Shown here one piece after another: positions 14,868-19,649 of a stretch of DNA of 64,000 nucleotides (within the stretch, counting starts at the first letter, position 1; every line of letters begins with the position of its first letter). The notes beneath the pieces are model-generated. The model made no database searches. It was not told the origin of the DNA and saw nothing but the letters and a program-made list of their open reading frames with translations. Origin of the DNA: Flavobacterium sp. 1 (GTDB taxonomy: Bacteria; Bacteroidota; Bacteroidia; Flavobacteriales; Flavobacteriaceae); contig NZ_PGER01000001.1 in assembly GCF_002797935.1 (NCBI RefSeq), forward strand, positions 2,604,001-2,668,000, in the 5' to 3' direction. The position numbers and the translations under genes were made by a program.

Positions 14868-14994
14868 ATTCTCATTTACACAAAAAGTGTATCACTCCAA
14901 ATTAAAATCCTTTTTACGATTTATCAAGAATTGTATATATCTTAGCACAAGATAAAGTCTGGCATTTATCAGGCCTATATACTAGTTGTGTGTC

Positions 14995-15004
14995 ATTTTG
15001 ACTA
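14995..15004 (+). other. Left boundary of cassette A (integron-type core-site half)
   Basis: GTTGTGTGTC here is the reverse complement, 9 of 10, of GACGCACAAC at 16317-16326 after the SUKH gene. In integron cassettes the start of an inserted cassette complements its own attC R'' box, and this pair fits that rule. Confidence 0.5.
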
Positions 15005-15025
15005 AACGAAACGAAAATATAAAAA

Positions 15026-15661
15026 ATGAAATTAAGATATTTAGCTTTGATCTTTATAAATGCATTGATATTGTTGGTATTTCTTAATATTTCAGTGGAC
15101 AAACTTGAAACTGTTCTTGATGGTTCTATTATTGAAATAGAAATATTTAAAATTATCGGTTTTACTATTTTATCTTTAATAGGAATAAGAATTCTTATCT
15201 CATATTTTAGGTGGAAAAAAATAAATTCTAAATCTACAAAACAAAAAATATCTGCTTTATTAATATTTACAATCTGCTTTATTTTATATTTTAACTATTC
15301 TCAAAAATTTATTGAAAACAGAATTGTAAATATAACTTTAAGGAGACAACTATCACAAAAGATAAAATTTATAAATGGCAGTGAAAGTGAAACCAAAGCA
15401 GAAAATTTAACATTTGAAGAATATCAATTAATTATTAAAACAAAATGGTTTCCAAAAATATCAAAAGAAGCAAAAAACATATCTTATTACTATTGGTATG
15501 ATGGTTTTCTACCTGATCATAGTTTTACGTTAAAGTATAATGTTCCAAAAAACATAAAAATAAAACCTTTTGACATTACTGATGGCGATTTTACTCAAAG
15601 CCAAAAAGTAGAAATGTTAAAGACTTCAAAGAACGTTGAATATTCAGAAAATGAACAATAA
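15026..15661 (+). CDS. Hypothetical membrane protein of cassette A
   Basis: 211 residues with three hydrophobic segments (about 4-22, 42-62 and 75-92) and a hydrophilic, lysine-rich C-terminal half. No family was recognised. It starts 22 bases after the cassette boundary, which leaves almost no leader, as is typical of cassette genes. The SUKH gene follows 25 bases later. Base composition is more AT-rich than in the neighbouring thiamine gene, which fits transfer. It could be an inner-membrane immunity or anchor protein, but nothing shows this directly. Confidence 0.65.
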   Translation: MKLRYLALIFINALILLVFLNISVDKLETVLDGSIIEIEIFKIIGFTILSLIGIRILISYFRWKKINSKSTKQKISALLIFTICFILYFNYSQKFIENRIVNITLRRQLSQKIKFINGSESETKAENLTFEEYQLIIKTKWFPKISKEAKNISYYYWYDGFLPDHSFTLKYNVPKNIKIKPFDITDGDFTQSQKVEMLKTSKNVEYSENEQ

Positions 15662-15686
15662 TTAAAAGAGAAAAACGAAAACTTAA

Positions 15687-16310
15687 ATGGTAATCGAAAA
15701 AGAACTAATTACTAAGCTTAAAAAAATTGATGGAAATGGATTTTTTAAGAAAAACCCATTTCAATTATTTGGTTCCAAAGAACATAAATATGAACTAAAT
15801 AATTGTTTAAAAGAAGAAGAAATTCTAGACTTTGAAAAAACGAATCAAATTGAACTGCCCTCGGAATATAGAAATTTCATAAAAAATATCGGAAATGGAG
15901 GAGTTGGTCCAGCGTACGGAGTTTTCAAGTTGGAAGATTGGAATATTGAACTTGACATTGAGAACAGTAATTTTTTAAATAAAAATTTTCCATATATAGA
16001 AAAATGGAATTTAGCATATTCAGAAAACAAAAATGATGAAGATTTTACAGAAAGTGACGAATTTAAAAATTGGGAATTAGAGTGTTTTAGTGAAACACAT
16101 ATTTATGGAAGTATTAGAATTTGTCATTATGGATGTGCAATTTATTATTTTTTGGTAGTTTCGGGAATAGAAAAAGGAAATATATGGATTGATGCAAGAG
16201 CAAATGATGAAGGAATATATCCATTGAAAACTGAAACTAAATCGAGATATAATTTTGCAGAATGGTATAATGAATGGATAAATGAAAGCTTGAAAAAACT
16301 GAATAAATAA
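15687..16310 (+). CDS. SMI1/KNR4 (SUKH) family protein
   Basis: 207 residues. The SUKH core is recognisable: EEEILDFEKTNQIELPSEYRNFIKNIGNGG (about 47-76), then GPAYGVFKLEDW, later GSIRICHYGCAIYYFLVVSG and a GNIWIDAR strand. Bacterial SUKH proteins are often immunity proteins against contact-dependent or secreted nuclease and deaminase toxins (established for the family). No toxin is encoded in this window, so an orphan immunity gene carried on a cassette is the most attractive reading. Confidence 0.85.
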   Translation: MVIEKELITKLKKIDGNGFFKKNPFQLFGSKEHKYELNNCLKEEEILDFEKTNQIELPSEYRNFIKNIGNGGVGPAYGVFKLEDWNIELDIENSNFLNKNFPYIEKWNLAYSENKNDEDFTESDEFKNWELECFSETHIYGSIRICHYGCAIYYFLVVSGIEKGNIWIDARANDEGIYPLKTETKSRYNFAEWYNEWINESLKKLNK

Positions 16311-16316
16311 AAAAAC

Positions 16317-16436
16317 GACGCACAACAGCTACAACAATGGATTTAGGCAATACGCTTAATGGAAAGTTGGTTTTGTATTTGGATGATTTGGCAAATCCGA
16401 AAATAGGTCTTAATTCAGTCTCAAACCCGCTGATTA
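16317..16436 (+). other. Left part of an attC-like site, interrupted by IS110
   Basis: GACGCACAAC (16317-16326) followed by AGCTACAAC... would be the R''/L'' side of the attC of cassette A. The site continues to CCGCTGATTA (16427-16436), where the IS110 element begins. Removing both insertion sequences would join it to GTACCAGA-ACGTTATGGGC and so to cassette B. L-box pairing across the rebuilt site is poor, so the call is tentative. Confidence 0.45.
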
Positions 16437-16588
16437 CTATGGTATTACCAAATAAAAATTCGTAAAAAAGCCATCTATTTTTTGCGAATAATTAATAACT
16501 TTGATTTAGGAAAAACAAAAAAGTCTTGCGAAGGGGAAGAGCATTTTTTTCTCTTTCCTTTCAAAAGAAATTTTATTTAATGTTTTTT

Positions 16589-17590
16589 TTACGCTACTTG
16601 TCTTTTTTCAAACATTTTGTTTTCTCTTATGCATGCACATACTCTATGTACAAGTTTGTTCCTAACATTGTTTATGATAAGCATCTTGTTTTTACCTTCT
16701 TCCACCTTTCGATTAAAATAATTTTTTAATTCAGGATCACTGGTAATTGCTGACAAGGCACACATATGAAGCTGTTTTTTTAATTTTTTGTTAGCCACAT
16801 AATGGACTTTTGGTTTTGAGCGAATACTTTTCCCCGAGGTATGTTCAAAAGGTACAACACCTGCATAACAAGCCAGTTGGCGAGGAGTTGTATACATTGT
16901 AAATTCGTTTGTAAAACAAATCAAAAACAAAGCCGTTACTTTTCCGATGCCAATAACAGATGTGACAAGAGTGAAAATTCTAGAAATATTTTCATCGTCA
17001 TTTATTGTTTTGTCCAATTGTTTTTCAATGTTTTTTAGATCCAAATCAATTCCCTTGATGGTGCTTTTCTGTAGTTTTTCAGAAAGTCTGGCTACTTCCA
17101 AATCAAAGGCTTTGAGTTCTTTTACATTTCGCAACAAAGAAGCTTTTGTTGCAACTAATTTTTCCCGCAGGGACAAAAGATTTCTCATTTTGTTGATTTC
17201 CATTCTGGGAGCATTAAAAATAACTGCTTCCTCCACATTTTTCATGGCATAAAAAGCAATTCTTTGGGCATCAACTTTGTCGTTTTTGCCTCTTTGAACC
17301 CCAATGCTGCGAATAATTTTCAGTGACATTTCGACCCAAAGTGAGAACTTTTCAATCATTAGACATTTGATTATTAACTTGCCGTACATTCCTGTGTGTT
17401 CTAAACAAACAAGCGTGTTTTCAAACGTGGAACCTTGTTCCTTGAGCCATTTGCAAAGGGACTTGATTCCTTTGTAATCATTTACAAACTGGCTGTGAAT
17501 TGATTTTTCTTTATTTCTATCCAAAATTACTACGGCATCAAAATATTCTTTTGACACATCGATACCTAAAAAATGTTTAAATTTACTCAT
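16589..17590 (-). CDS. IS110 family transposase
   Basis: 333 residues, a normal length. The N-terminal RuvC-like DEDD domain shows FLGIDVSKEYF (about 7-17), LVCLEHTGMYG (about 59-70) and GKNDKVDAQRIAFYA, providing the acidic residues. A coiled-coil linker (about 120-200) follows, and then the C-terminal Tnp domain with VIGIGKVTALFL, PRQLACYAGVVP and HTSGKSIRSK, whose serine matches the family's catalytic serine. It acts in the cytoplasm as a recombinase guided by an RNA made from the same element (established for IS621). Intact, so the element may still be mobile. Confidence 0.95.
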   Translation of the reverse strand: MSKFKHFLGIDVSKEYFDAVVILDRNKEKSIHSQFVNDYKGIKSLCKWLKEQGSTFENTLVCLEHTGMYGKLIIKCLMIEKFSLWVEMSLKIIRSIGVQRGKNDKVDAQRIAFYAMKNVEEAVIFNAPRMEINKMRNLLSLREKLVATKASLLRNVKELKAFDLEVARLSEKLQKSTIKGIDLDLKNIEKQLDKTINDDENISRIFTLVTSVIGIGKVTALFLICFTNEFTMYTTPRQLACYAGVVPFEHTSGKSIRSKPKVHYVANKKLKKQLHMCALSAITSDPELKNYFNRKVEEGKNKMLIINNVRNKLVHRVCACIRENKMFEKRQVA

Positions 17591-17622
17591 AAGAAAAGAT
17601 TTTAAGCATTAGCAACCAAATT

Positions 17623-17762
17623 ATTGAACACACTCGTAACCTTGATAATAGGCCTTAAAACCTGAATTACTATTTGATGCTTGTTCAATATAAACTGACA
17701 AAGTCCTAATCAGCGGATAAGTCTAAAAACTTTGTAGTACCAATGGTGTACTTTGTCAGTTT
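17623..17762 (-). ncRNA. Candidate bridge RNA of the IS110 element
   Basis: Two tandem stem-loops read on the minus strand, upstream of the transposase. Stem 1 is AAACTGACAAAGT with ACTTTGTCAGTTT (17750-17762 and 17692-17704, 13 bp). Its left internal strand holds TGGTACTAC and its right strand CCGCTGATTA-type guide (plus-strand 17734-17742 and 17707-17716), with an AAGT/ACTT tip. Stem 2 is ATTGAACA with TGTTCAAT (17682-17689 and 17623-17630), with a large asymmetric loop. The first loop matches both flanks of the insertion, as a target-binding loop should. The second loop shares ATAGTA with the element end, a weaker donor match. Confidence 0.65.
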
Positions 17763-17823
17763 GGTTGTTAATTTAAATTTACGAATAATTTATTATGCAA
17801 ATCTAAAGGTAGTACCAGAACGT

Positions 17824-19536
17824 CAGGCTGTGAAAAAACCTCTTTTTTTCATTCCAACCTCTTTATTTTGCCCTCACAAAATTCAAATAAGGGCTTTTAA
17901 CGAAGCCTCTTTTTTAGGAGGCTAATTTAGTTTCAAAGAAAAAGAAGTCTAATTTCGGTTTTAAATAACTCATTTTTAACAAAAACAAGACTTTTGCCTT
18001 GTAGGGTGAGTTCCATTTCTTGAGTTTGGCAATGAGCTCGGGAACTCCGAGTATATTGATGCTGCGTTTGATGTTATAGACCAGCATAATCAGGCTGTGT
18101 TCTCCATTTACTTTTTCCAATCCTGTTAAATTGGTGTGATTGTAGCCCCATTGCCGTTTGATAGTGCCAAAAATGTGTTCGTTGATTTCCTGCCGCTTGC
18201 GGTAGAGCTGTGCATTTGCGTGGTAGCGTTTGTTGTTTTCTTCTACGGCATCGGCATATTGGCTGCGGTCTATATCTCGACCGGCCATCCTACTGGTGCA
18301 TAAATGTTTTACAGGACATTCTCTGCATTTGGGTGTTCGGTATCTCTTGAACTCATAACTGTCTCTGTCCGTGGTTTTCTTGTGCCAGTGGCCTGTAGTT
18401 TTAAGCGTTTCGCCCTGTGGGCAAGTGTAGGTGTCGGTGGTTTTATTGTATTGGAACTTAGAAACAAAATAATCCTTGGTTGTTCCGTTTTCCTTATTTT
18501 TTCCTTGTTCGGGTTGCGCTACAATTGTAGTGATATTGGCTTGCCTACAGGCTTCTATTTCTCGCCCGTTATGATAGCCTTTGTCCACCAAAGCCGTGTA
18601 GGTTTCTATTTCTAAATTCTCTTTGGCTTCTATGGCAATAGCCGATAAGGCGTTGCGGTCATTACGATTGATGGTGTGCGTGGCTACTACAAGATTGTGT
18701 TTGGCATCGACGGCTGCCTGCATATTAAATGAGATTTCAACCACCTGTCCCTGAACCAATAATGCTCTGGCATCGCTGTCGGTGGTGCTTATTTGGGGTT
18801 CTCCGCTTGCTTTTAGTTTTTCTTCCAGCAATTCGTAGCGGATTTTGTTTTGTTTGAGACACTCTATTTTTTGTTGGACATTTTTGATTTTTGGAGAGTT
18901 TTCTTTTGCATCATTTGCTTCCAGAGCATCAAGATATTCTTGGGTTTTGGTCTCAATGTATTCCAGGTGCTTGTCAATTTTCTTTTGGTTAAAATTGGCT
19001 TTTTTGCTGTTGTGAGCCCGGCTTTTGGTGCCGTCAATGGCAATGGTTTCACCGCCTATCAAGTCCGCATCTTTCAAGAATGAGACAAAAAGCTTGAAGA
19101 GTTTCTTCAAGGCAGCGGGATTGTTTTTTCTGAAATCTGAGATGCTGTGGTAATTGGGACGAATATCTTCCAATAGCCATTGCATTTCAATGTTTCTAAA
19201 ACATTCCTTCTCTAATTTTCGCGAGCTTCTTATTCCGCCCAGATAACCGTATAAATAGATTTTAAGAAACACTTTGGTATCGTAGCTCGGGCGGCCTTCG
19301 GTTTTGATGGTTTGCACTGCAAAACCCAGCTTAGCAAGGTCTGTAAACGTCACAAATGCATCTATAAATCGCACTTGATTATCGGGAGCTATGGCGTCTT
19401 CTAAACTGGAAATACGCATCTGGTGGCGGGAAATTCCTATGATATGCTGCATCCCTAAAAATACGAAAATTCCTGTTTTAACACAAGTTTTTTGTTATAT
19501 TTGTTCCTAAGCAAACGGAAGTTTTTTCACAGACTG
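17824..19536 (-). mobile_element. IS1182-family insertion sequence
   Basis: 1,713 bp with one transposase. The left end CAGGCTGTGAAAAAACCTC (17824-17842) is an inverted copy of the right end, whose complement reads CAGTCTGTGAAAAAACTTCC (19517-19536). ACGT stands on both sides (17820-17823 and 19537-19540), consistent with a 4-base target duplication. It sits 8 bases outside the IS110 element. Confidence 0.85.
17914..19452 (-). CDS. IS1182 family transposase
   Basis: 512 residues, full length. The N-terminal DUF772 region (HQMRISSLEDAIAPDNQVRFIDAFV, YGYLGGIRSSRKLEKECFRNIEMQWL) is followed by an insertion with long helices. The DDE-type catalytic core has IAIDGTKSRAH, TALVDKGYHNG and late acidic residues near NEHIFGTIKRQWGYNH. 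A four-cysteine region (YTCPQG, CRECPVKHLC) lies between. It cuts and pastes the surrounding 1.7-kb element. No frameshift was seen, so it may be active. Confidence 0.95.
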   Translation of the reverse strand: MQHIIGISRHQMRISSLEDAIAPDNQVRFIDAFVTFTDLAKLGFAVQTIKTEGRPSYDTKVFLKIYLYGYLGGIRSSRKLEKECFRNIEMQWLLEDIRPNYHSISDFRKNNPAALKKLFKLFVSFLKDADLIGGETIAIDGTKSRAHNSKKANFNQKKIDKHLEYIETKTQEYLDALEANDAKENSPKIKNVQQKIECLKQNKIRYELLEEKLKASGEPQISTTDSDARALLVQGQVVEISFNMQAAVDAKHNLVVATHTINRNDRNALSAIAIEAKENLEIETYTALVDKGYHNGREIEACRQANITTIVAQPEQGKNKENGTTKDYFVSKFQYNKTTDTYTCPQGETLKTTGHWHKKTTDRDSYEFKRYRTPKCRECPVKHLCTSRMAGRDIDRSQYADAVEENNKRYHANAQLYRKRQEINEHIFGTIKRQWGYNHTNLTGLEKVNGEHSLIMLVYNIKRSINILGVPELIAKLKKWNSPYKAKVLFLLKMSYLKPKLDFFFFETKLAS

Positions 19537-19540
19537 ACGT

Positions 19541-19649
19541 CAGGCTGTAAAAAAACCTCCTAAAATTCAGAAAGTATTCGGAGGGCTACCAAAGAAAAAA
19601 CTCAAATATGAGATTCTCAAGAGGCTGATTTTAGTTTTTTCACAGACTG
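19541..19649. mobile_element. 109-bp MITE with IS1182-like ends
   Basis: Begins CAGGCTGTAAAAAAACCTCC (19541-19560) and ends with TTTTTTCACAGACTG, the inverted counterpart, at 19649. ACGT flanks it on both sides (19537-19540, 19650-19653), the left one shared with the IS1182 element. It has no coding capacity. It was probably moved by the transposase of the neighbouring element. Confidence 0.75.

Follow-up and report, generated by a model that had tools for sequence, protein, structure and literature searches.

An IS110-group insertion sequence of Flavobacterium with a predicted bridge RNA and a single C shared by its junctions with attC-like repeats

The window analysed here is the whole stretch of 64,000 nucleotides from Flavobacterium sp. 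1 (contig NZ_PGER01000001.1, positions 2,604,001 to 2,668,000). Within it, an IS110-group insertion sequence of 1376 bp lies on the minus strand at 16433-17808. It carries a transposase gene preceded by a predicted bridge RNA and interrupts an attC-like repeat. The features of the locus are as follows.

at 14985, cassette start motif GTTGTGTGTC
16317..16431, minus strand, right part of the interrupted attC-like repeat, with outer end GACGCACAAC at 16317-16326
16427..16431, minus strand, right target AGCGG
16432, minus strand, shared core C of the right junction
at 16433, minus strand, right end of the element, ..CATAGTAAT
16433..17808, minus strand, whole IS110 element, the unit common to five near-identical genome copies and absent from unoccupied repeats
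16449..16452, minus strand, TTTG, a -33-like box in the right end, correctly positioned only once the two ends form a circle
16589..17590, minus strand, transposase/recombinase of 333 aa
17614..17766, minus strand, predicted bridge RNA core, with outer stem AACCAA 17761-17766 / TTGGTT 17614-17619 around two stem-loops
17624..17688, minus strand, predicted donor-binding loop, with stem TTGAACA 17682-17688 / TGTTCAA 17624-17630 (helices 4-6 of the consensus)
17640..17648, minus strand, predicted right donor guide UUA-(UC)-AAGG, which would flip out two bases to pair with CCTT-TAG in the left end
17666..17673, minus strand, predicted left donor guide ATAGTAAT, identical to and of the same sense as the element right end 16433-16440
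17692..17762, minus strand, predicted target-binding loop, with a 13-bp stem 17750-17762 / 17692-17704
17707..17710, minus strand, ATTA, predicted handshake-type guide, complementary to TAAT of the element's right end
17711..17716, minus strand, predicted right target guide CCGCTG, its G pairing with the shared C, complementary to 16427-16432 CAGCGG
17734..17743, minus strand, predicted left target guide TTGGTACTAC, shared C included, matching the left flank 17809-17818 at 9/10 bases
17798..17805, minus strand, TAGATTTG, a -7 box (TAnnTTTG) in the left end
at 17808, minus strand, left end of the element, CTTTAGATTTG..
17809, minus strand, shared core C of the left junction
17810..17818, minus strand, left target remnant (CTGGTACTA)

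The transposase contains the Pfam domains DEDD_Tnp_IS110 and Transposase_20 and scored 146.8 against NF033542, 'IS110 family RNA-guided transposase' (cut-off 140). Its solved relatives in the PDB are IS621 and ISCro4, and D11, E64, D104, D107 and S252 align with D11, E60, D102, D105 and S241 of IS621. The DEDD RuvC domain is accordingly accompanied by a Tnp domain with the catalytic serine, the combination found in the IS110 group. The Pfam domains, the NF033542 score and the PDB relatives bear out the assignment to IS110 made in an earlier sequence-only reading of this DNA, all the quoted letters of which are present in the window (letter-for-letter check).

In the host genome, a single contig of 5.35 Mb, the element is present in five full copies (99-100% identity); a truncated copy, 87% identical across 515 bases, and a match of 34 bases were also found. 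All five full copies occupy one common insertion point, in one orientation, within a dispersed repeat of ~145 bp. The point, repeat and orientation were identical for at least five copies retrieved from a congener (G259), copy numbers in the genus scan being minima with only part of the first-look candidates scored (5/15 in G259). Of the 398 genomes scanned in the genus, 12, counting the host's own, contain relatives at E<=1e-90, and further ones were found at two loci from a wider scan of genome contigs and on one plasmid (L079, 84%); one scan of viral contigs gave no stretch matching the exact patterns. Unoccupied repeats of the host genome read GGTACTACAGCGGG or close variants, not GGTACTAATCAGCGG, and those at L017 and L018 read GGTACT-CAGCGGG. 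Allowing up to 3 mismatches, the pattern GGTACTACAGCGGGTTTG had 21 sites in this genome and its reversed control had 2; one of the empty target sites was exact and seven had one mismatch. The target reads GGTACTA-C-AGCGG, and a single C is common to both junctions (17809 / 16432). Among the element copies examined, C was present at 28/28 left and 27/27 right flanks counted, with the ends located by a motif containing end letters, L079 omitted because its site repeats that of L062, and the truncated L006 being without a right flank.

The sequence-only reading had set the junction differently, with TA as the core of a 16-base target TGGTAC-TA-ATCAGCGG. An uninterrupted run of ten complementary bases in the right strand of the loop speaks for that register, which we nevertheless regard as very improbable. 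When right ends were located by the anchor CATAG alone, which is free of end letters, the next four letters were TAAT, TTAT or TTGT and the fifth was C in 28 of 29 copies despite their differing targets; the exception, L006, is truncated and has lost its right end. CATAG occurs twice in L068, and a second CATAG lies elsewhere in L047, L072 and L075; the one at the element end was taken. The joined site TACTAATCAGCGGGTTTGG had five matches at <=2 mismatches in the host genome, all of them element ends and none empty, and the same search in 150 genomes returned these five and one stray match in each of two others. Empty repeats read GGTACTACAGCGG or close variants. The search for an empty 16-base site, which the earlier reading had proposed, yielded none, and the empty sites join at the C, a different point from TA, an outcome which that reading had itself named as refuting it. 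Since the joined site was found in the host at element ends and not empty, the element brings its own TAAT: on these alignments, 16433-16436 is the element's own end and not target.

The long left end of the element, upstream of the transposase gene, is predicted to encode a structured RNA with two stem-loops containing internal loops, as in other members of the IS110 group. The core folded as a single sequence with z -2.2. A consensus of 29 pairs was obtained from fifteen non-redundant leaders, with 96.8% of cells paired over the 15 sequences (99.4% in helix 1 of the target loop, 12 pairs), and its two internal loops correspond to the predicted target and donor loops. The 13-bp stem described previously (17692-17704 with 17750-17762) was recovered letter for letter. 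Compensatory (double) changes were present in 16 of the 29 pairs, compared with 7.1±1.6 after shuffling (0 of 500 shuffles as high) and with 0-3 pairs in slid structures, a comparison that favours the consensus over its slid versions because the structure was derived from the tested alignment. These counts refer to the inner helices, the outer stem not being among the pairs counted. For further pair types, the alignment gave 21 and the shuffles 23.1, with 477 of 500 shuffles as high. An Rfam search of 16300-17900 returned KCNQ1OT1_1 at 17.6 bits (cut-off 70), which is below threshold and was taken as chance. The protein family, the covarying structure and the covariation of guides with flanks together support the earlier proposal of a bridge RNA with the target loop first and the donor loop second. 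The leader would be expressed as RNA, and its guides would pair in vivo.

On the left strand of the target loop, TGGTACTAC at 17734-17742 equals the left flank 17809-17817, in agreement with the first description. The complementarity of CCGCTGATTA at 17707-17716 to 16427-16436 also stands; the view that all ten bases represent target does not, because its ATTA matches the element end. This ATTA was nearly constant in the alignment of relatives' loops with different targets. From the relatives, 28 sites and 15 distinct target loops were read; L049 (37% identical) and the plasmid matches H2, H3 and H6 (L095-L097) were left out of the guide analysis. L015 carries two target loops in tandem upstream of one transposase, and the gene-proximal loop was used. 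Over 16 units, the right guide matched its flank at 59.9 of 75 positions, compared with 26.6±4.6 after shuffling (maximum 43.5; 0 of 20,000), and the left guide at 68.1 of 144, compared with 39.6±5.5 (1 of 20,000 shuffles as high), these permutations being slightly conservative because units L064 and L014 share a loop. The predicted target guides pair with opposite target strands and covary with the target, as is typical of the IS110 group. This covariation supports both the sense/antisense geometry and the match beyond chance that had been claimed for guides and flanks, with several of the 16 units fitting poorly.

The fit was clear (left, right) in L062 (8/9, 5/5), L067 (8/9, 5/5), L047 (8/9, 5/5) and L048 (7/9, 5/5), and poor on both sides in L065, L072, L071, L075 and L068. 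Left fits of only 1-3 of 9 were obtained for L065, L072, L071, L075, L077, L066, L068, L069 and L006; right fits were lowest in L068 (1/5), L065, L072 and L071 (2/5 each) and L075 (3/5). In two relatives from other genera, L093 and L094, the left target guide fitted by eye at 8/9 and roughly, respectively, and no fit of the right target guides was seen by eye. L093 apparently has two loop pairs in tandem, at -343 and -107 from the gene. The flanks of L068 resemble its own donor junction (ACATAATC-CTTTAGCAGCC) and not its target guide. The truncated copy L006 has a different loop, the right guide of which predicts CGAATA, a sequence found in the unoccupied L025. A short sequence (GAGCGATAGCGAATAG..) inserted in the attC-like repeats L025, L023 and L026 is the target of L006. 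The gapless left fit was weak in L063, L071, L064, L065, L069 and L006, and skipping flank position -3 raised it to 5-7 of 9; the base at -3 is A in all six. With one unpaired base allowed for all units the total was 89.5, compared with 51.7±5.4 (0 of 10,000), a result that we treat as a lead because the position was chosen after looking; L014 and L072 depart from the -3 skip.

The poor matches of several units, and the predicted status of the bridge RNA, leave some room for a different explanation, namely that the transposase protein itself reads the site and that the likeness of loop and flank is coincidence or stems from repeats of common origin that the element has captured. We find this hardly credible. 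The guides change with the flanks on both sides and in opposite senses, and none of the 20,000 shuffles equalled the right one. Covarying structure is retained in the leader, and the homologue IS621 is RNA-guided according to the experiments reported in passages of PMC11208158 and PMC11208160.

The predicted donor loop matches the ends of the element itself, the donor sequence of which is written as CATAGTAATCCTTTAGATTTG. The ATAGTA shared with the element end, noted earlier as a possible donor guide, falls short with its 6 nt, the predicted guide being 8 nt long (ATAGTAAT, 17666-17673) with a match of 8/8 in the window. The other side, which had been judged to fit only loosely, fits once two bases are flipped out (17640-17648). 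The left donor guide changes together with the element end, both being TAGTTAT in L063/L071, L065/L072 and L075, and ATGGAAAT in the 50%-identical relatives L093 and L094. L015 (guide TAGTTAT, end TAGTAAT) and L069 (end TAGTTGT) are exceptions to this match of donor guides with element ends, which is otherwise that of IS110 elements. Within the genus there is little variation in the right donor guide or its partner; a joint change was seen only in L093 and L094, where AGGG stands opposite CCCT. As far as the sequences tell, the donor loop is fitted to the element ends in the discontiguous pattern described for IS621.

For IS621, passages of PMC11208158 describe a CT core at positions 8-9 with an almost invariant second base and cleavage after position 9, two right-donor-guide bases that flip out, and handshake guides, next to the right guides, that pair with the partner DNA after exchange. 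A passage of PMC11208160 describes the discontiguous pairing of nine RNA bases of the right donor guide with seven DNA bases. Placing the shared C at position 9 would give the same two-base flip here, with UUA(UC)AAGG opposite CCTTTAG. Position 8 would then hold T in the donor and differ among targets, and AUUA would pair with donor T8-A7-A6-T5; by the same analogy, ATTA probably corresponds to the 'handshake guide' of IS621 (PMC11208158, in part). Inspection by eye of a handshake guide in the donor loop against the target gave no clear signal. The cleavage position given by this register is a prediction. Donor and target share a single C and not CT, and the element was therefore not filed as an IS621-type CT element. 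At the core position, the left guide of L048 has A instead of C. In the same bridge-RNA system, the core could alternatively consist of the C and the base after it, with strand exchange directly after C as first base. The junction sequences by themselves permit either frame, because only one C is shared. We consider the C-first frame unlikely: the base after C is C in the donor, as against A, G or T, and once C, in targets, and two flipped bases followed by two pairs place the C at IS621 position 9, before the cleavage point.

Joining of the ends would also form a Flavobacterium-type promoter, TTTG-N20-TAGATTTG. TAnnTTTG is given as the flavobacterial -7 box in a passage of PMC9723704. Across the joined ends, the distance between TTG and the left-end box was 20 bases, in one case 21, in 16/16 elements tested, of 29, and the exact TAnnTTTG was present in 15 of these 16; part of this conservation reflects common descent, since the elements tested are related.

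The ten copies recovered in the two genomes lie inside the ~145-bp repeat, which resembles integron attC. The repeats are clustered, and their arms are palindromic in the two that were folded (z -1.9 and -4.2 on one strand, +0.1 and -3.3 on the other). Among eight adjacent pairs of repeats readable on both sides, seven had complementary cassette ends, with agreement at 6-7 of the 8 variable bases, and the remaining pair agreed at 2/8; other neighbouring repeats, with an outer arm replaced by another element or unreadable, were left out. For six of the eight pairs, the true order gave 40/48, and 1 of 720 orders was as good. The repeat may be a form of attC, and we name it attC-like. A two-gene unit at 14985-16326 has ends, GTTGTGTGTC / GACGCACAAC, that are complementary at 9/10 and is closed by the window's own site; it looks like a gene cassette. 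One of its genes is weakly similar to SUKH/SMI1 immunity proteins, below the Pfam cut-offs. Tyrosine recombinases adjoin two of the repeat clusters. The recombinase by the repeats passed NF040815 ('recombinase/integron integrase'; 222 vs 220) and was below the cut-off of the integron integrase model TIGR02249 (209 vs 265). It has an extra N-terminal stretch (L086 10684-11811, G000:C1:789683-790810), and the copy at L087 2254-3297 is interrupted by a stop. A tyrosine recombinase beside attC-like arrays points to a possible integron-like system in the genus. A passage of PMC2426708 mentions intI in the Bacteroidetes/Chlorobi group, and a literature search on integrons in Flavobacterium found nothing on the subject among the papers listed.

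CGTCAGGCTG is present at 17821-17830 and 19538-19547, close to either side of a DDE-transposase gene (17914-19452). In many attC-like repeats of the host genome it appears to stand where the outer arm would be, so a second mobile element might have a preference for these repeats. At G000:C1:524890-525176 (L043, L044), near-identical copies of the outer part of the repeat lie ~113 bases apart without the attC-like core.

We conclude, with a probability of roughly 0.88, that the locus is an IS110-group element that moves by bridge-RNA-guided recombination joined at the shared C. In the mechanism we propose, the leader RNA would fold into a target-binding and a donor-binding loop, the target guides together reading GGTACTA-C-AGCGG and the donor guides AUAGUAAU and UUA(UC)AAGG pairing with both element ends. 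Recombination would join at one shared C, at position 9, where the CT core of IS621 has its T, and the preceding position would be free (T in the donor; A, G, T or C in targets). The near-constant AUUA beside the right target guide would serve as a handshake guide, taking hold of the donor end once the strands have been exchanged. The loop of this lineage would be aimed at the attC-like cassette repeat; relatives have different loops and occupy different sites. More tentatively, and with somewhat less than even confidence, we suggest that these elements form a branch of IS110 in Flavobacteriaceae characterised by a one-base core C, an extended handshake guide, tolerance of an unpaired target base in some lineages (5/16 units, post hoc) and repeated reprogramming of the target loop. 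One lineage of it would be parasitic on integron-like cassette arrays with an XerA/IntI-like integrase that has an extra N-terminal stretch and is not canonical IntI.

Bridge recombinases are under development as tools for programmable DNA insertion, and the core preferred by IS621 is CT. If true, a natural branch that requires only one fixed base would widen the choice of targets. The 15 distinct natural target loops at known sites, their fit ranging from good to poor, would show guide reprogramming in evolution, and the lineage would be a further example, from outside the IS1111 group, of RNA-guided elements that occupy attC-like sites. An IS110 element with a bridge RNA is of a known kind; the one-base core and the target appear to be new, and the core claim may have precedents. 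The lineage is not described in the passages of PMC11208158, PMC11208160 and PMC11187229 at hand or in literature listings.

The element resembles IS621 in its RuvC-DEDD and Tnp domains with the aligned serine, a leader RNA with the target loop followed by the donor loop, a left guide of the same sense and an antisense right guide, a handshake-type guide, a right donor guide that pairs discontiguously by flipping out two bases, and a promoter at the joined ends, seen here as a motif only. It differs from IS621 in the invariant shared C in place of the CT core, in H65 and E87 aligned at the core-contact positions A61 and N84, in a handshake match that extends over the first core position, and in its Bacteroidota-type promoter and attC-like target. 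ISCro4 was compared by protein sequence alone. According to passages of PMC11187229, the IS1111-attC elements ISKpn4 and ISPst6 are also RNA-guided and enter attC of integron cassettes. They belong to the IS1111 group, in which the RNA is usually downstream of the gene, whereas the RNA described here lies upstream, the arrangement of the IS110 group, and the genome with the attC-like sites is that of a Flavobacterium. The seekRNA of ISEc21 (IS110 group), compared by description and not by detailed alignment, is likewise upstream with matches to both target strands, and that element shares insertion without target duplication and natural reprogramming among its relatives (PMC11187229, in part), its target being a different one.
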